Source: Massariosphaeria phaeospora (lineage: Eukaryota; Ascomycota; Dothideomycetes; Pleosporales). From it: a stretch of DNA of 64,000 bases. Position numbers and translations under genes: made by a program. The notes beneath the pieces are model-generated. The model did no database searches, was not told the origin of the DNA, and worked only from the letters and a program-made list of their open reading frames with translations. This document shows positions 19,429 to 64,000 of the stretch, piece by piece. Each line of letters begins with the position of its first letter. The first letter of the stretch is position 1. The stretch spans positions 2,377,826-2,441,825 of the forward strand of contig JAADJZ010000002.1 in assembly GCA_011032825.1 (NCBI GenBank). Direction: 5' to 3'.

Positions 19429-20883
19429 TCAGCCATCCGCCAACAATCGCGCCACGCCGCGAAGCCCAGGCATAAAGAAGTAAGCGCCACCGCGCACAGT
19501 GACGAATTGCGGGAGGCCGCCAATAGCACGGGGCCACGCGCCAGAATCCGTGTAGCTGAAAGCGTCAGTCGGCTGCGCGCCCGCGAGCGGCAGCCGGTTA
19601 CCGAGCAGCGGGTCCTGCTCAGCGGCGAGCCCAGCGAACTTGGCGTTGGCAACCCAGGCGCCCTGCACGAACTCGAACTGGCGCGCGATGTTGGTGTTGA
19701 GGCACAGGAAATGCAAGCCGGATTCCTGGCCGGCGCCGGCGCCGGCGCCCGTGCCCTGCATAGCGGCGTGCGGGGCGACGACCGGGCCGTAGGGGCGGCC
19801 GCGACGGGAGAGGCGGTGGAAGCGCGCGGAGGCGACGGCATCGTGCATGGCGGTGCCGCTGAACCCGAGCGTGGAGATAAGGTTGCGTACGAAGCCGTGG
19901 CGCCCCTGCGGGTCGTCGGCGCTGCGCGGATTGACGCGGCGGATATGCGCGCCGATCGGGCAGACGAGGCCGTCGGCATCGTCAGCGAACAGGAAGGCGT
20001 TGCGCGCATCGTCGGTGCCCGTGATGGTGGCGGACTGAAGCCCGAGGAGGGGCGCGCCGTCGAGGCCACGGCCGACCATGCGTTCTGCTAGCGCGATGGC
20101 ACCGTCGTCGTCGCCGGCCTGACGCGCCAGCCATTGCCAGAAGCCAGCAACATCCTGCGCAAGCTGGCGGTAGACGAGGTAGGAGCCGTTGCGGCCCAGC
20201 TCGTCGGCGGCAGGGTAATCGTTGACGAAGCCGTACTCGTTGGGATAGCCGAGCAGCAACTCGCCCATGGCCAGTAGATTGCGATAGTCGCGGTCGCGGG
20301 CGCCGCCGGGGGTGAGGGTGCCACTCCAATCGTACTCGGGCTGCGAGACGCCGTCGGCAAAGCCAAAAGGTTCGCGGCCGAGGGGGGTGGTGGTGGTGGT
20401 CGGGGTATTGCCGCCGATGACCGCGCAGCCGGCGGCCACGGCAGCGCTGCATGTGTCCTTTGCCAGGCTGTTGATGGAGGTGTTTGCGGCCAGCAGGACC
20501 AGCAGGATATGCGGCTCTTGTTCGCCGACGCCCCAGTGCCAGTGAGCGGGGGAATTAGGGCCTTCGTCTCCCAGCTGGTGCGAGCGGCGCTCGTCGCCGG
20601 CCATGCCGTCGATGAATTGCGGGTCGAAGCCGGCCCCGGGGGTGACTTCGGTGCCCAGCGCGCGCAGGCCGGCGGCGGTGAAGGCCATCTGGCAGACTTG
20701 CGACAGACGCTGCGTGCGGGCTTGCGCCACCGAGGCGATGTCGACGGAGCGCAGCCAGGGTTTGGCTAGGGCGCGGTCTTGGATGCGCAGGAGCAGGTAG
20801 CAGGCGCCGGTGAGCGACCCGAAGCCGCGACCCGCTATCGCCTGAATATCGGCGGCTTCGTCGTTGGCGGCCATGCTCATCAT
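19429..20883 (-). CDS. DyP-type (dye-decolorizing) heme peroxidase, 484 aa
   Basis: Intronless GC-rich frame. The DyP signature GFADGVSQP lies at residues 174-182, giving the distal Asp177 expected to assist peroxide cleavage. CPIGAHIRRVNPR follows, with His313 as the likely proximal heme ligand, then FHRLSRRGRPYGP with the usual Arg-rich segment. No signal peptide is seen, so it is probably intracellular. Members oxidise dyes, phenols or other substrates with hydrogen peroxide. ATG 20883 overlaps the TGA of the upstream gene as ATGA (20883-20880), with both genes on the minus strand; this is the standard coupling of a bacterial operon. If ATG 20883 is not used, Met at codons 2 and 4 are alternatives within the overlap zone. 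Lack of introns, GC-rich codon use and this arrangement suggest transfer from a bacterium. Confidence 0.9.
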   Translation of the reverse strand: MMSMAANDEAADIQAIAGRGFGSLTGACYLLLRIQDRALAKPWLRSVDIASVAQARTQRLSQVCQMAFTAAGLRALGTEVTPGAGFDPQFIDGMAGDERRSHQLGDEGPNSPAHWHWGVGEQEPHILLVLLAANTSINSLAKDTCSAAVAAGCAVIGGNTPTTTTTPLGREPFGFADGVSQPEYDWSGTLTPGGARDRDYRNLLAMGELLLGYPNEYGFVNDYPAADELGRNGSYLVYRQLAQDVAGFWQWLARQAGDDDGAIALAERMVGRGLDGAPLLGLQSATITGTDDARNAFLFADDADGLVCPIGAHIRRVNPRSADDPQGRHGFVRNLISTLGFSGTAMHDAVASARFHRLSRRGRPYGPVVAPHAAMQGTGAGAGAGQESGLHFLCLNTNIARQFEFVQGAWVANAKFAGLAAEQDPLLGNRLPLAGAQPTDAFSYTDSGAWPRAIGGLPQFVTVRGGAYFFMPGLRGVARLLADG

Positions 20884-22163
20884 ATCTCAGCGATCCAGGC
20901 TCGGAGCTCGGAGCCGGTCAGGTTCGCGGTGAGCCCCTGGCGGATGCGGGTGTTGCGGGCCAAATCGTACGTAGTCAGGCCGGGCATGGCCTTGTACCAC
21001 ACCTGGGTTGGGATCTGGTGGTGGAACAGGTAGCGCTTGAAGTGCTGCTCGTGGCGGGCGCCGTCGAAGACCAGCCAGTTGGTTTGCGGGTAGCCGAGGC
21101 CGTTGGAGAAGGAGAGGTTGAGGCCAAAGGCCACCTTGTTGATGAAGTCGTCGTTGTAGGCCTCGCGGCTCCCGTCGTAGTTGCTGGCGAAGAACACCCG
21201 CCGCTTGTCGTCGAGGAAGGTCCAGCTGGCGAAGTGGATGGTGTTGACGCGGCCCAGTCGACCGGCAGTGTAGAGGTGGCGGCCGCTCCAGTCGATGAGC
21301 CAGAGGATGGCGACGCTCAGCCAGCGGCGGAAGCGGCCTGGTTTGAGCGAGCCGATAGTGCTGTACTGGTTGGTCACGTCGCGGTCCTCGGCCGCACTCA
21401 GCAGCTTGTTGCGCGCAATCGAGGGGACGGGGGCGAGCACCGGATCGTGGGTTTCGCGCCAGCGCAGCAGCAGGACGAGGGCCGGCAGCGCGGGGACGAG
21501 CAGCGGCGCCAGGAGCGCGACGTACAGCGGCAGCCGCAGGAAGTCGCCCATGTGCGCCACCCGCTCGGCGACGGTGCGGGCGGGCGGCGGGGTCAGCGCG
21601 ACGGTGCGGGCGGCGGCGAGCAAGACGGCGCGCAGCTGCTCGGGCGCGGCGGTAGGGTGGGCGAGACGGGCCTGTCGCAGGGCGTCGTGCAGCGCGGCCT
21701 CTTCGCGGACCTGGGCCATGGTGCGGCCGGGCCAGTTGGCGTAGGTGGCCGACGAGCGGATGCGGTGGGCGCGCAGCCAGGCGAGCAGGTCGGCGCGGGC
21801 GTGGGCGTCGAAGTCGCTGCAGTGGCCGAAGATGAGCAGCAGACCGGGGGTGGCGAGCTGGACGAGGTCGCGCAGCAGCCCGTCGGCGGTGCCGTCGCAG
21901 TCGGCGACGAAGGCCAGACGCAGCGGCTCCGCGGCGGACAGCTGGCGGGCGAGCTGGAGCTGCTGGCGGTCGGGCAGCGAGGGGTCGTCGAGCACCACGA
22001 AGCGGGCGACGTGGAGGCTGGCGATGCGGCCAAACGGCAGCAGCGCGTTGGCGGGGTCGGCGGTGCCCGGGGCCGCGTTCATCGAGGCAAGCACGCCCGC
22101 CAGCGCCTCCACTGCGCCCGAGCGCACCGGCGCGGCGACGAAGACGTGGGACTGGCCGGCCAT
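20880..22163 (-). CDS. Conserved bacterial-type partner protein of the DyP peroxidase, 427 aa
   Basis: Intronless GC-rich frame starting at ATG 22163 (MAGQSHVFV). The N-terminal half reads LLPFGRIASLHVARFVVLDD, LRLAFVADCDGTADG and GLLLIFGHCSD, a ferredoxin-like pattern that also recalls half of a DyP fold. A central hydrophobic stretch (LYVALLAPLLVPALPALVLL, residues about 214-235) may span or touch a membrane. The C-terminal half has DVTNQYSTIGSLKPGRFRRW, HFASWTFLDDKRRVFFASNY followed by DGSREAYNDDFINKVAFG, and NTRIRQGL. I recognise this C-terminal signature from uncharacterised bacterial proteins but know no function. It overlaps the DyP gene by four bases downstream and faces the 143-residue gene across a 735-bp divergent promoter. 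Probably acts with the peroxidase (inference from context). Confidence 0.8.
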   Translation of the reverse strand: MAGQSHVFVAAPVRSGAVEALAGVLASMNAAPGTADPANALLPFGRIASLHVARFVVLDDPSLPDRQQLQLARQLSAAEPLRLAFVADCDGTADGLLRDLVQLATPGLLLIFGHCSDFDAHARADLLAWLRAHRIRSSATYANWPGRTMAQVREEAALHDALRQARLAHPTAAPEQLRAVLLAAARTVALTPPPARTVAERVAHMGDFLRLPLYVALLAPLLVPALPALVLLLRWRETHDPVLAPVPSIARNKLLSAAEDRDVTNQYSTIGSLKPGRFRRWLSVAILWLIDWSGRHLYTAGRLGRVNTIHFASWTFLDDKRRVFFASNYDGSREAYNDDFINKVAFGLNLSFSNGLGYPQTNWLVFDGARHEQHFKRYLFHHQIPTQVWYKAMPGLTTYDLARNTRIRQGLTANLTGSELRAWIAEI

Positions 22164-22898
22164 GGCTGGCTGCTTTGGTTCAGGGAGTTGGGCGGGAGTT
22201 GCCGAGAGGGATAGAGCGGTTCGAACCAGCTGCTACTTCTATGGGACCAGGACGACCGCTGAAGCCCCCGCTGCTTTATGCTTGCCAGCTTAGAAGACGG
22301 CATGGCCCAGGTCTTTCGCGGGCATCGCGTGTGCAGCTATCGCATTGGCGGGGCCATTGGGTGGCGGCTTGTTCAACGTCCTCGGGCATGTCAGCTGGCT
22401 TTTGGCCCTCAACCACTTTCACATTTCAATTCCTGGAAGAAGCCGGCTGCCCAATCAGAGTTGGATGCGGCGCGTCGAACACGGTCCAGATTGCGTGATA
22501 ACGGTCCAGCCGCAGCCTAGCTCCTCACTCCGCAAGGACGCATCAGCATTCACAGCAGGACTGATATGGTGCCGTTGTGGATGCTCTTCAGCTCTGATGC
22601 CACCTAGTGTATATGTTAGAACATCCAGCCGAACCAACGAAACCGCCGCATCTAGCGAAACAAATCCAGCCGACGCAGCCCCGAGTAACTGCACGTGTAG
22701 CTTGTTGTTCGTCCGACATCAAGAGTGAGCGAACGCCATGGGCTGAGCTCATGCAGCTGGTGTCGACGAACAGGCAAAACATCACTGAGCCCGTGTAGCT
22801 GGTGCCGACAAACCAGCAAAACACCAACATCAACCCCCTCATCCTCACCACCAGTTGTCCCCTCTCCCTCCTCTTCAGGAATCAGACAAACCCCCACA
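22164..22898. promoter_or_regulatory. Divergent promoter region between the DyP pair and the 143-aa gene
   Basis: 735 bp between two outward-facing starts (ATG 22163 on -, ATG 22899 on +). The last 50 bp before ATG 22899 are pyrimidine-rich (CCTCTCCCTCCTCTTC), typical of a fungal start region. ATCCAGCCGA occurs near 22622 and 22667, and GAGC(C/T)..GTAGCTGGTG(C/T)CGAC near 22747 and 22790 forms a short direct repeat of GCTGGTGTCGAC and GCTGGTGCCGAC. A shared regulatory space would allow coordinated expression. Confidence 0.45.
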
Positions 22899-23330
22899 AT
22901 GACCTACACCCCCGAAAACCTCCTCACCATGTCCTCCTCCTCCCTCGCCACGCTCTTCTCCCACGCCCCCGCCGGCCCCATCCCCAACGGCTCCGCGCAA
23001 GGCACCGCCATCGTCGCGCCGGGCACCGCCTTCACTTCCGACATCGCCGCCTTCATCAACATCTTCGCCTGGCAGGGCAAGATCTTCAACGCCGAGAAGA
23101 TGGCGCTGGTGAACAACATCACCGTGTTCGGCCTCGATGCCATCCTCGCGCACATCTCGCGCGGGCCGAGCTGGATAGACGGCAAGGAGTGCATTGTCCT
23201 TGATTACTCGCAGACGTCGGTTGTGGCGCATTGGGTGCGCGATGAGATGCGCTGCATTGGGCCGGGGGTTTATCTAGGGAGGGTGTTTTGGAAGGAGAGG
23301 CATCTTATTTATTTTTCGCTGAGGTTCTGA
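22899..23330 (+). CDS. Conserved bacterial-type small protein, 143 aa
   Basis: ATG 22899 follows a CT-rich leader; an upstream GTG/ATG-less extension was rejected. The protein reads GPIPNGSAQGTAIVAPGTAF, then FAWQGKIFN, ITVFGLDAILAHISRGPSW followed by IDGKECIVLDYSQTS, and ends VRDEMRCIGPGVYLGRVFW then FSLRF. The ordered motif GPSW.DGKECI.LDYS.TS...HW.RDE..EI.PG.YLG is familiar to me from bacterial proteins of unknown function, likely a small beta-barrel or NTF2/lipocalin-like ligand-binding fold (inference). No signal peptide. It is divergent from the 427-residue/DyP pair and intronless, and probably belongs to the same transferred group. A bound small molecule, lipid or heme-related ligand would fit, but nothing in the sequence proves it. 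Confidence 0.75.
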   Translation: MTYTPENLLTMSSSSLATLFSHAPAGPIPNGSAQGTAIVAPGTAFTSDIAAFINIFAWQGKIFNAEKMALVNNITVFGLDAILAHISRGPSWIDGKECIVLDYSQTSVVAHWVRDEMRCIGPGVYLGRVFWKERHLIYFSLRF

Positions 23331-25335: not shown

Positions 25336-26120
25336 ATGGTGTTCGCTACTCTATTCTCTTTCCTGAAGGGCATCGTCAGTTTCAGGTCGCGGGAACGAAG
25401 TCAAGAGATTTCCAAAACCCAGCAAATGGATCATGAGTATGTTCGAGGGAACATTGACAATCGAGGTCCTTGTCCTGGCCTGAATGCACTAGCGAACCAG
25501 GGATACATGTACGTTGGCCGTCTTCTCCAGGCCTTCATTTTCATGCTGACAGCCATATGTACAGACCCCGAGATGGGAAGACCATCAATATAGCCCAAGT
25601 CGAAACCGCGTTGATGGCCGGCCTTCACATGAGCAGCACCCTAGCATCCACCCTGGCCCGCACTCTCCGCCCCCTCTGTCGAGCCGACGGCACATTTGAC
25701 CTGTACGACATGAGAAAGCACAATGTGATAGAGCACGACCGGTCCTTCACTCGCCTCGACTTTCGGCAAGGAGACAACTACACGTTCCAGCCCGCCATGT
25801 TCCAAGCCCTTCTCGACGATGCCGCGGGCGGACCCATCACGATACGGACCCTGGCCAAGACTTACGCCCGCCGCAAAAAGGAGTGCAAGCGTTCTGGTGC
25901 CCCTCGCCTTTCCCTCAAGCTCTGGGGCGTCAACCTCATTCAAACTGTTTCTTTCTATCACACCGCAGCCATGAACCCGCTTACTAAAGAAACAATGACG
26001 ACCTTCTATGTAGAGGAGCGGTTCCCAGATGCGATACTGCAGAACCCGAAGAAACGTACTCTACTTGGCTTGATATGGGATACAGTGGTTCTTTTGACCT
26101 ACATTGTGTTCAAGACGTGA
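25336..26120 (+). CDS. Heme-thiolate peroxidase (chloroperoxidase / unspecific peroxygenase family), 242 aa
   Basis: Two exons: 25336-25508 and 25565-26120. The 56-bp intron (GTACGT...branch CTGAC...TACAG) splits an Ile codon and restores LANQGYIPRDGK. Hallmarks: GPCPGLNALANQGY at residues 44-57 with Cys46 as the axial heme ligand, and VIEHDRSF at 112-119 with the EHD triad that supplies the metal site and acid-base residues. Length fits the short family I enzymes. These enzymes use hydrogen peroxide to oxygenate or halogenate organic substrates. The N-terminus is only weakly hydrophobic (MVFATLFSFLKGIVSF), and a hydrophobic C-terminal segment (LIWDTVVLLTYIVF) could anchor it in a membrane, which is unusual for the normally secreted family. 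It sits between the DyP group and the catalase-like gene and has a normal fungal intron, so it is native in style. Confidence 0.9.
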
Positions 26121-26574: not shown

Positions 26575-27768
26575 CTACAGCGGCAACGGCGGGTCGAAGG
26601 TTTCGCTGCCGTCCGGCTCAACGTGCGGCGTGTCATTCATGTGCTGGCGCAACAGCGATAGCGCCTGGTAGATCTTGAGCCGTCCGCGGTTCTGGTTGCC
26701 CAGCGGGCGATGCGCCGGCAGGCAATGCCACGGGTTGATGGACAACCGGCTGGCGAAGGCGAGCTGGGCGTCAGTGTCGAAGCGCTGGCTTGGCAGTTCC
26801 AGCGTCGCGACAACCACGGGCGGGCTGTCGGGCGCGTCCCAGCGCACCGATGCATGCTCGACGGGCATGCGTTGCGCGTCACTCTGCAGTTGCAGCAACA
26901 TCTCGAAGCGCGCAGGCCGCGCGGTGAGGGTGCGTGCCATGGCATCGCGCAAGTAGTTGTCTGAAGGGCGGCCTGGCAAACCAGGAATGCGGCTGCGAGT
27001 GGCGCCCACGGGCCGGAAGTGGTACTGCATGGCCTGGCCTTCGCCCAGCAGGTAGGGCACGCAGCCCCAGTACTCGGTCTCAAGCGGGCTCGTCTGCGTG
27101 CGCGACCAAAGGGCCTGCATCAGCGCATCGAGGAAATGGCCGCCGGGGCCGACGAAGTAGAACAGCGGCAAGCCACGGGCGACGGCAGCTTGCAGCTTCG
27201 CGTTGGCGGTCAGGTCAGGCGTGGTGAAGACTGGGGTGCTGATGCCGGTGAAGTCCTGCGTGAAGCGCTCGTCGCGTAGCAGCTTGGGGCCCGGCACGCC
27301 CATGACCTTGACGCCGATGCTCAGCACGCCGACATCCTCGATATCAGGTGGCAGCGCTGGCCCGGGCCCGCTGAAGCGCACCCAGACTGGGTATCGGTGC
27401 GGCTGCTCGAAAAGGCCGTGGCGCAGGTTCTCTGGCAGGCCGTCGTGGATCACCAGCTCGCCGCGCACCACACCGTGGGTCTTTGTGTTGCCGCCGCGCT
27501 GCGCCGTGCCGGCATCATAGTGCGTGCGCAGGTACTGCGACATGTTGGCGATGATGTCGGCGATTAGTTCGTCCTCGCCCGCCAGGGGCTGCTCCTCCGC
27601 GAGCCCGAGTCCGTGGTCTGGGAGACGGGCACGGATTAGCGCCTGCACCAGGCGCGTGAGCGGCTCACGTGCAATCGCGTCGACGAACGGACGGAAGAAC
27701 GGATCGATGCGCCGCTCGATATACATGGCGCCGACGAAGAAATCGTGCAGGGCCCGTAGGGCGGCCAT
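26575..27768 (-). CDS. Catalase-like heme protein (y4iL-like group), 397 aa
   Basis: ATG 27768 (MAALRALHDFFVGAMYIERR) is the first ATG of the long frame; the frame is open further upstream, but only from a TTG, which is not a fungal start. The core has KTHGVVRGELVIHDGLPENL (distal His98), RYPVWVRFSGPG, VLSIGVKVMGVPG and, near the C-terminus, NPWHCLPAHRPLG then RGRLKIYQALSLLRQ with R363-x-x-x-Y367, where Tyr is the expected axial heme ligand. This fits the catalase-related heme proteins found mainly in bacteria, whose activity may be peroxidase or lipid-peroxide turnover rather than true catalase. It is intronless and GC-rich like the DyP group 4.4 kb away, and probably came with it. No signal peptide is seen. 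Confidence 0.85.
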   Translation of the reverse strand: MAALRALHDFFVGAMYIERRIDPFFRPFVDAIAREPLTRLVQALIRARLPDHGLGLAEEQPLAGEDELIADIIANMSQYLRTHYDAGTAQRGGNTKTHGVVRGELVIHDGLPENLRHGLFEQPHRYPVWVRFSGPGPALPPDIEDVGVLSIGVKVMGVPGPKLLRDERFTQDFTGISTPVFTTPDLTANAKLQAAVARGLPLFYFVGPGGHFLDALMQALWSRTQTSPLETEYWGCVPYLLGEGQAMQYHFRPVGATRSRIPGLPGRPSDNYLRDAMARTLTARPARFEMLLQLQSDAQRMPVEHASVRWDAPDSPPVVVATLELPSQRFDTDAQLAFASRLSINPWHCLPAHRPLGNQNRGRLKIYQALSLLRQHMNDTPHVEPDGSETFDPPLPL

Positions 27769-53457: not shown

Positions 53458-55323
53458 ACGTAAACCACCAGTAACCCGGCCAAACCAGTAACCCGGCCAA
53501 ACCAGTAACCCGGCCAAAAATGCTTGGCACAACCAACTCATCTCAAAGAACATCAAATTAATCGCTATCGAACAAGGAACCTGCGTACGTCGTGCTAGCT
53601 TTAGATTCAGAAGCTTCTTCTGTATCCTTTTGGCAGGTTCGGGCATTGTGCCCTGTATCACCACAGTTTCTACAGCGCTGTAGAGCTGGTTGTGCTCTTT
53701 CTTGACCCTCTCTACTACGCGCTTTCTTTGATAGCTGAGGCGCTGTAGACGCTTCAGCAGCTACTTGCGCTGATCCGTTACTGTACTCCATTGTACCGCC
53801 ATGCTGAATCCGCTTCCGTTTGCGCGATTTCCGCTTGGTTATCTCTGCTAATTGATCTTCAAGCTCCTTTTTTTGGTGGTCCTTGAGCGCGTTCTGATGC
53901 AGCATTAATTCAGCTCTTTTTACAAGCTGAGAGAAGCCACTCTGCGCTAAAGTAAGCGATCTAGTAATAGAATCGCGTACTAGCTTTGATTGCGATCCAA
54001 ATTCGAGTGTATTGCTTGGAGTCTTTGACTGCCACGGCGTCTCTAGTGCGGGGGGTAGTAGCGGGGTACGCAGCCGTACTTCAAGACGACCAAGGACTAC
54101 CTGCGCGTTGATAGGGACTAGCCTTGAAGCCTCAAAGGCTTTCTTGCAGTTCTTTGTTGTAAACACCTCAAAAAACGCGTCTCTAAAGGCTAGCAAGAAG
54201 CCTTCTTTGTTGATATAGAAGACGCGCCGGCGCGCTAAGTCTTGAACGCGTTGAGAGTACTTCAGCTTCAGCGGCGAGAAGCAGACCACATCTAGCAGCT
54301 GAAGGATATAAGATAAATAGGCCGGCATGCAGAGCGTGAGAATCTTGTTCTCAAGGCAATAGTCTTTGAAATCCTGAGATTGGTGGCTCTCATGGCCGTC
54401 TAAAATGAGCAGCCGATACCCCCCTACCTAACGCGCCTTTGTATGCGCGTCAAAGTGCTTCAACTACTTAAAACCAAGAGCGTTGTTTGTCTAGCCGTTC
54501 TTAGAGACTAAGAGCTTCTAATTGCTAGGTATAAAGTTCTCCTCGTACTATGCTAAGATGTAAACGCGCTTTTTGTAGATAATAAACGGCAGGATCGCGT
54601 ACCCTGCGGCGCAAATGCTCTAGATAACTGTTACCTACTCTCGATCGCCTAGCTGGATAAGATTAGGTTGAGTACATTTCTAAGAGCTTGTAACGACTTT
54701 TATAGAGCCAATTACGCCTATCTAGAAGCTAGTCTTGTTAAAGTTGTGCACGTCGTCGTTGTAGACGCTGTACTTGGCTTTAGTGTCCTCTACTAGCTTG
54801 AACTACGCGCCAATTATTTCTAGATTCTTTTGGAGTATTCTCTGCCTATCCTTGGCTCGATTAAAAGCTATTTTGAGCTTAGATAAACGCGTTACGAAGC
54901 GCGCAGGCTAGTTCTTGCCTACTAGCCTGCTACTACGCTCGCCTAGCAGTTTATCAGCTATATTAGCTACTTTAGATAGAAAAAGCGCAAATTCTTGCGC
55001 GTTAAGGTTAAGAATGTATTAGACAATTGTTTTTTCTTTAGTGCTTGTAAGTTTACGAAGAGTAGACGTAGTTTTTAAGCTAAAAAGTGTTTCTTTATTG
55101 CGTTTAGCAAGTCGACGGTGATTAACAGTAAAAAACTATGCAGCTACGCAAAGGCTTTAGAATTTGCTAGCTCTAAAAGCTTTAAGAGTAAAAAGAAGTT
55201 TGCTTTTGTGTTTACGTAATTGCGCGTTCGTAGGTGTAAGCATAGTAAAAGCAAGTTAGTATTCGTAGTCTTAGCGTTTTTTAGCTAGGTTACTAGTTTA
55301 GCTAGGTTACTAGTAGTTTACGT
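53458..55323 (-). mobile_element. Fot1/pogo element, 1866 bp, nested, TA target duplication
   Basis: Left end ACGTAAACCACCAGTAACCC; the right end on the minus strand is ACGTAAACTACTAGTAACCT, the same sequence with C-to-T changes. TA dinucleotides flank both ends (53456-53457 and 55324-55325). Subterminal repeats: CCAGTAACCCGGCCAAA three times from 53468 at the left, and its mutated inverse (TTTAGCTAGGTTACTAG) twice at the right. The element carries a minus-strand transposase and lies inside another pogo relic. Confidence 0.9.
53558..55243 (-). pseudogene. Fot1/pogo DDE_1 transposase with C-terminal zinc knuckle, decayed
   Basis: Reading from ATG 55243 (MLTPTNAQLRKHKSKLLF) to 53558 gives about 561 codons in one frame with many TAG/TAA stops in the first half. 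Recognisable parts: LNAQEFALFLSKVANIADKL, GVIGSIKVVTSS, YAILPFIIYKKRVYILA, and YRLLILDGHESHQSQDFKDY with the second catalytic Asp. Then come CMPAYLSYILQLLDVVCFSP and a long tail ending in CRNCGDTGHNARTCQ, a CCHC zinc knuckle. The last 257 codons (54328-53558) are free of stops, while the first 300 are heavily mutated. Missense changes such as expected Pro to Leu and His to Tyr fit C-to-T mutation. Not functional. Confidence 0.9.
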
Positions 55324-63877: not shown

Positions 63878-63912
<35 letters not shown>

Positions 63913-64000
63913 GGTTAGGGGTTAGGGTTAGGGTTAGGGTTAGGGTTAGGGTTAGGGTTAGGGTTAGGGTTAGGGTTAGGGTTAGGGTTAGGTTAGGGTT
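63878..64000 (+). repeat. Telomere, TTAGGG repeats
   Basis: About 20 TTAGGG units run to the end of the window, with three variant units (an extra T near 63891, an extra G near 63920, a short TTAGG near the end). The G-rich strand points 5'->3' outward, so this is the right chromosome end. Confidence 0.98.

Follow-up and report, generated by a model that had tools for sequence, protein, structure and literature searches.

How does a fungus make the second protein of a captured bacterial gene pair when the start codon of the second gene overlaps the stop codon of the first? The question is raised by two genes, called A and D here, that lie on the reverse strand of the window, a 64000-nt stretch of Massariosphaeria phaeospora contig JAADJZ010000002.1. 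The first-pass annotation had pointed to the overlap as usual in translationally coupled bacterial operons and very rare in fungi, and had offered as explanations a bacterial operon captured whole and expressed from a dicistronic mRNA, a promoter acquired inside the first gene, or the expression of only one of the two genes.

The A–D overlap and the two proteins

The features of the junction are as follows.

22163..20880, reverse strand: gene A, the first cistron, an uninterrupted open reading frame of 427 aa
20883..19429, reverse strand: gene D, the second cistron, a DyP-type peroxidase, uninterrupted and 484 aa long from the overlapping ATG
20883-20880, reverse strand: the sequence ATGA, in which the TGA stop of A overlaps the first ATG of D
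20874..20872, reverse strand: an alternative ATG start for D in the context AGCATGG, 5 nt past the A stop
20889-20887, reverse strand: a TGA in the D frame, one codon ahead of the overlap, which blocks an A–D fusion by upstream frame change

The reported ATGA at 20880..20883 is indeed common to both open reading frames, as the stop of A and a possible start of D, and the ORF list and base composition confirm that the two genes are on the same strand, uninterrupted and GC-rich (GC 0.71 for A and 0.69 for D, with GC3 values of 0.935 and 0.829 respectively). In the context of the junction, GCTGAGATATGATGAGCATGGCC, A terminates in ATA-TGA and D can begin within these letters. The stop-to-stop open reading frame of D begins at 20886 and offers three possible starts, namely ATG 20883 (in the overlap), ATG 20880 and ATG 20874, the last of which gives a protein of 481 aa. 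As ATG 20874 is the called start (MAAND...) in eight of the 11 closest relatives of D (metagenome clusters P0123–P0133), the remaining three starting with MRMAAND..., the true start of D may lie just past the overlap.

Protein A has two ferredoxin-like α+β domains (ABM/SchA-like fold), in keeping with a dimeric α+β barrel fold, and long hydrophobic helices at residues 198–239; it shares 9–14% identity with its two best fold matches. DyP peroxidases are marked by the motif GxxDG, a proximal histidine residue in GxHIRRxNPR, and RR(x)nYG. Protein D aligns to PDB 8re3 with an E-value of 2.8e-37 and has GFADG, GAHIRRVNPR and RRGRPYG at these places, and it scores below the curated cut-offs of TIGR01413 (73.5 bits, cut-off 100.5), PF21105 (18, cut-off 27.5) and PF20628 (12.6, cut-off 20). 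Judged by its motifs and the PDB match, D is a divergent DyP-type peroxidase. Separately, we observed that the DyP proteins P0134, P0137 and P0142 (71–75% identity to D) carry a C-terminal extension of approx. 340 aa that looks catalase-like by eye; these tails were rejected as counterparts of gene C, described below, being too divergent in the tree, and the P0137 tail is without a Pfam domain.

A search of plasmids for A gave 44 records, all with less than 60% identity and none covering 80% of A. Three of these 44 records were opened, and each holds a single protein, in the range of 1423–1620 aa, made up of P450, A-like and DyP parts (L083:3814-8145, L084:3841-8112 and L085:2775-7637), the P450 match in L083 being below its cut-off. 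In L084, a Pararhizobium plasmid, the 1423-aa protein consists of a P450, A (residues 4–425) and D (9–482), and as the three are one polypeptide there, A and D probably work together.

Bacterial counterparts and origin of the locus

A profile scan for A confirmed 326 stretches in bacterial and archaeal genomes, and the 80 best of these were analysed; these loci were thus chosen by homology with A. In all 80 of them D is the next gene after A, on the same strand. A 4-nt overlap of the D start with the A stop, a feature that we read in the window and the bacterial loci alike, is possible in 38 of the 80 loci (35 ATGA, one GTGA and two TTGA), one further locus has a 1-nt overlap and the other 41 have some other spacing, the bacterial D starts having been placed mechanically and not proven. 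The eight best-matching loci (L003–L010) are all from Sphingomonadales, and five of them (L004, L005, L006, L007 and L009) have the ATATGA of the window letter for letter; in L003, L008 and L010 D starts 2–4 nt past the A stop and there is no ATATGA, and L026, a Sphingomonadales-labelled bin that matches less closely, lacks this overlap. The pair thus has a counterpart in the bacterial cluster of a hypothetical protein and a Dyp-type peroxidase found in Novosphingobium, Sphingobium and others, which has the same gene order and junction and shows 60–66% protein identity between the window and L003–L005. This cluster mostly has the order E–A–D with C nearby, a layout from which the window departs in the inversion of E and in the separation of C from the pair. 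Given that the fungal junction is homologous with the bacterial A–D junctions, the overlap is not, on the sequence comparison, due to chance.

The closest relatives of both proteins come from metagenome clusters, with 77–85% identity for A (P0003–P0012) and 79–91% for D (P0123–P0133), and further clusters follow at 70–75%. A partial protein from Melanomma pulvis-pyrius (P0115) has 77% identity with A over 66% of the query, and proteins of Novosphingobium, Sphingobium and Sphingomonas are next, at about 56–69% to A and D. Of 298 genomes from the family to which that of Novosphingobium lentum belongs, 40 match A at an E-value of 0.001 or less, and among those 40 only five match it over nearly its whole length (47–66% identity); long open frames around the A-like matches recur in that family search. 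No relative of A was confirmed in the viral contigs scanned. In the fungal assembly itself (42.08 Mb, 51 contigs) each of the four genes A, D, E and C has a single match, the copy numbers being lower bounds.

Phylogenies of both proteins had been proposed as a check, and in quick trees built from chosen rows (24 loci and 17 proteins for A, 24 loci and 18 proteins for D) A and D each group with Sphingomonadales, the window falling inside a clade that joins them with SH-aLRT values of 99 (A, 24 rows) and 100 (D, 27 rows). The Melanomma pulvis-pyrius protein, also from Pleosporales, falls inside the A clade. That the genes are widespread in bacteria and that the fungal branch is nested speaks for a transfer into the fungus from bacteria, and the synteny in 80 of 80 loci, the trees and the identical junction together indicate that A and D came as a unit. 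We therefore consider it very nearly certain, on these comparisons, that A and D derive as a pair from a bacterial operon with sphingomonad affinity and have inherited their ATGA junction from it.

The same homologues bear on the possibility that D is in truth produced as an A–D fusion, by frameshifting, readthrough or splicing, or that the split between the two frames is an assembly error. The natural P450–A–D proteins of L083, L084 and L085 make a fused product tolerable. However, the D-frame TGA at 20889-20887 confines any change of frame to about two codons, within which no slippery heptamer could be seen by eye, which leaves almost no room for a fusion by frameshifting or by one indel; moreover, AEI closes the A protein in all 18 bacterial and related sequences aligned, and the position at which D begins is shared as well. 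With this TGA and the conserved termini, frame fusion and an indel artefact were rejected, and the misassembly at the junction that the first-pass annotation had named as its possible undoing finds no support, the bacteria and relatives having the same two separate termini. Splicing was likewise discarded, as A contains no GTRWGY donor and offers a single weak frame-compatible intron candidate (21002-20841). Taken as a whole, we regard the fusion or artefact explanation as very improbable.

The rest of the captured cluster is arranged around the pair as follows.

22164..22898: the 735 bp spacer between the divergent genes A and E, presumed from its position to be a shared promoter region
22899..23330, forward strand: gene E, 143 aa, a β-barrel protein by model, homologous with the gene directly upstream of A in bacteria
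26575..27768, reverse strand: gene C, 397 aa, with relatives that carry the names heme-dependent catalase or catalase family protein

Both E and C are found within 8.3 kb in the window, with C 4.4 kb from A. They were sought within the fetched stretches of the 80 bacterial loci, some of which end at contig ends; a match to E was found in 78 of the 80 (weak at 24–26% identity in L016, L018, L021, L022 and L082, and partial in L024), directly upstream of A on the same strand in 68 and 2–191 nt from the end of the match, and a C homologue lies near A–D in 69. The structure of E gave one Foldseek match under 0.001 (4mve), and C had no Pfam match at an E-value of 0.1. E remnants are present as N-terminal extensions of the A proteins, directly before A, in P0007, P0009 and P0010 (best E-values of 1.8e-7, 1.4e-18 and 3.1e-6 respectively against 73 E proteins). 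The P0009 remnant is most like the Pontixanthobacter protein (L009, 68%) and less like the window E (51% over 35 residues), and no E remnant was detectable upstream of A in the window.

In quick trees of C (25 loci, 22 proteins and the three tails mentioned above) and E (45 loci), C groups not with sphingomonad C but with Polyplosphaeria fusca (85% identity), Burkholderiaceae-labelled bins and Leptothrix, and the window E is a long branch without a resolved placement. Among 399 genomes from the order of a Rhodoferax genome, E was found in two and C in 21, with no clear donor. Thus the proposal that a whole bacterial operon had been captured stands in part: capture of A and D as a unit is strongly supported, but the bacterial cluster also holds E and C, and capture that includes these two was rejected, since C has a separate bacterial affinity and E, on the other strand in the window, has a long branch. 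The inversion of E and the different affinity of C give the fungal cluster the look of a mosaic put together from two or more donors, and the bacterial-operon feature that it retains is the A–D junction. A and D came from bacteria and kept their junction, whereas the genes around them have been lost, relocated or replaced.

TTAGGG telomere repeats occupy the end of the window (63880-64000), whose last base is also the end of the 2.44 Mb contig, and the locus is therefore chromosomal and no contaminant. The A–D pair lies 42–45 kb from the telomere and the captured genes overall 36–45 kb from it. This subtelomeric site fits the retention of foreign genes in yeasts, where kept foreign genes are linked to chromosome-end regions (PMC13376923). 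The fungal homologues P0115 and P0253 likewise speak for a eukaryotic chromosome and point to a host in Pleosporales. The flanks hold a Peroxidase_2 gene, a kinase gene and a P450 gene in two ORFs. The first of these three (25500-26120, forward strand, chloroperoxidase/peroxygenase type, E-value 1.4e-27) is situated between C and E in the same 8 kb and encodes a heme peroxidase of a different kind from D, and the cytochrome P450 gene (50170-51842, forward strand), whose two ORFs are likely to be separated by a short intron, is 28 kb from A–D. Towards the telomere, the GC content falls to 0.34–0.47 between 55000 and 63880, perhaps marking a transposon-rich, mutated subtelomere, and an ORF adjoining this region (53558-54427) resembles a DDE transposase by eye. 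We also observed that a GMC oxidoreductase gene, a possible source of peroxide, adjoins C in two sphingomonad loci (L003:9872-11710 and L004:9898-11688); the L003 protein has no homologue in the window.

Constraint on D and its linkage with A

As eukaryotic translation in its standard form yields the first cistron alone, it might be that only A is expressed and that D is decaying. The 484 codons of D are nevertheless intact and its DyP motifs are kept, and we compared the two proteins with seven relatives of A and eight of D over the columns that are invariant in 16 chosen bacterial loci, a test made at the protein level. Between the window D and its nearest relative, P0123, none of the 107 invariant columns differ, as against 32 of 311 variable columns, and across the eight relatives the ranges are 0–4 of 107 invariant and 32–68 of 310–311 variable columns. 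The corresponding values for A are 0 of 80 invariant and 64 of 336 variable columns against P0004, and 0–2 of 80 and 59–90 of 336 respectively across the seven relatives. The window itself departs from the bacterial-invariant residue at four of the 107 columns in D and one of the 80 in A. Differences in D thus avoid the bacterial-invariant sites about as strongly as they do in A, and D is constrained about as strongly as A, which makes a dead D unlikely. The suggestion that only one of the genes is expressed is disfavoured accordingly by the constraint on D, and we hold a decaying D to be the remotest of explanations.

In addition, eight of the 14 closest A clusters (P0003–P0015 and P0066) match a D cluster whose longest contig is of equal size (P0004/P0124, P0005/P0125, P0007/P0128, P0010/P0131, P0011/P0130, P0066/P0123, P0013/P0139 and P0014/P0135). 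From this exact equality, by which placement on the same contig is deduced, A–D linkage seems to persist among the relatives, in which A and D are separate proteins. The presence of the Melanomma protein among these metagenome clusters suggests that they are fungal and, if so, the constraint and linkage speak for a D that is functional and translated in a lasting two-gene arrangement.

Expression of the second cistron

The reading that we favour for the expression of D is termination–reinitiation. One mRNA, starting in the A–E spacer, would carry both A and D, and A would be translated by ordinary cap-dependent scanning. At the TGA of A a fraction of the ribosomes would escape recycling, and these would reinitiate at one of two AUGs, the overlapping one or the well-placed one 5 nt further on, so that D would be made as a protein of its own, less abundant than A. 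Reinitiation on a dicistronic mRNA as the main source of D is, on the features of the locus described here, a proposition on which we stand evenly balanced.

The spacer has, on the A strand, CCAAT at 22360 and 22348 and ATTGG at 22455, with no TATA. Between the A start and the D start there are four internal in-frame ATGs and no out-of-frame ATG, so that ribosomes starting at any AUG in A would terminate at the TGA that touches the D start; none of the 80 bacterial A genes is free of out-of-frame ATGs. The codon use of A by itself accounts for this absence (null mean 1.08, P 0.71), which is unusual only when set against the codon use of its neighbours (P 0.003 for D, E and C together, 0.003 for D and 0.01 for the kinase gene). 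We therefore make no claim of selection against out-of-frame AUGs, there being no excess beyond A's own codon use. The GC3 gap between A and D, at 0.110, is larger than in all 80 bacterial pairs (maximum 0.097).

Precedents for this mechanism come from viruses and yeast. In victoriviruses of filamentous fungi the RdRp is made by stop/restart at an AUGA (PMC3597494 and PMC6631646), with the prototype victorivirus requiring an upstream RNA element (PMC6631646). The victorivirus CP/RdRp junction has in common with A–D the AUGA stop/start of coupled reinitiation, two long ORFs and fungal ribosomes; it is, however, viral, whereas A–D is a chromosomal gene pair in which no upstream structure above chance was found. 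This counts against the proposal: by simple models, the RNA ahead of the AUGA is not unusually folded (z values of 0.22, 1.40 and 0.60), nor does its best H-type pseudoknot stand out (P 0.41 against synonymous resampling), so that neither search for a special upstream RNA element gave anything above chance. For yeast, PMC11952965 reports that wild-type cells normally show no second-cistron translation and that selection can yield cells able to translate a second cistron, with lower efficiency when the spacer is longer. Dicistronic messages also have a fungal parallel in the polycistronic readthrough transcripts of mushroom-forming fungi (PMC4503453), which, like A–D, may place two ORFs on one fungal mRNA; those ORFs belong to annotated fungal genes, were scored as not overlapping and have their translation left open, whereas the ORFs of A and D overlap.

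The main rival is that D is transcribed from its own promoter, arisen inside A, so that the overlap would be a frozen relic. No unusual translation would be needed, the constraint on D is compatible with it, and in all the cases cited in PMC11952965 captured operons were rearranged into monocistronic units. On the other hand, the 1280 nt of A contain neither TATA nor CCAAT, and A is a coding sequence of 71% GC under constraint. Many fungal promoters are without TATA, and the absence of such elements is weak evidence. The linkage of A and D, which seems to be kept in the eight contig pairs although three relatives no longer have an intact E, also counts against an internal promoter, as an independent D would not require it. 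On balance we consider a promoter inside A to be unlikely, if far from negligible.

A second rival keeps the dicistronic mRNA and has ribosomes bypass the AUGs of A by leaky scanning and so reach the D AUG. Leaky scanning is expected of a message with no out-of-frame AUG upstream, a weak context at the first start and few in-frame AUGs. The first of these features is present here, there being no out-of-frame AUG between the two starts, but A has neither of the others: five in-frame AUGs would have to be bypassed over 1.28 kb, and the first of them is in GCCATGG, with one more having A at −3 and G at +4. The precedent is that green algae appear to translate bicistronic mRNAs in this way, according to PMC11952965. 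We judge leaky scanning to be improbable as the main source of D.

Returning to termination–reinitiation, a broader version of the proposal is that the fungal lineage has kept the coupled pair through its diversification and employs for a chromosomal gene the AUGA stop/restart known from its viruses, with A having lost every out-of-frame AUG in the host; we offer this tentatively, thinking it somewhat more doubtful than probable.

Transfers of bacterial operons into yeasts are already known, for thiamine salvage and enterobactin biosynthesis (PMC13376923 and PMC11952965), and they resemble the present case in that bacterial operon genes were captured by a fungus. According to PMC11952965, none of the transfers that it cites retained operon structure, whereas in the window, probably that of a filamentous ascomycete, the stop/start overlap is present. 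What appears to be new is a captured operon pair with the stop/start overlap still in a fungal chromosome. We found no description of the A–D locus or of an E–A–D–C oxidative system in the open-licence literature searched, nor anything useful there on Glarea operons or on DyP transfer in Pleosporales. The E–A–D–C cluster, together with the natural P450–A–D fusion proteins, draws attention to an oxidative system. The means by which eukaryotes express bacterial operons that they have captured are still debatable, and the A–D locus is a natural candidate for this question because the overlap is present, constraint acts on A and D alike and the remaining cluster genes have been rearranged around the pair. 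The junction offers a natural test of the way in which the second protein is produced in a fungus and, if reinitiation is true, it would be a cellular counterpart to the AUGA stop/restart of fungal viruses.
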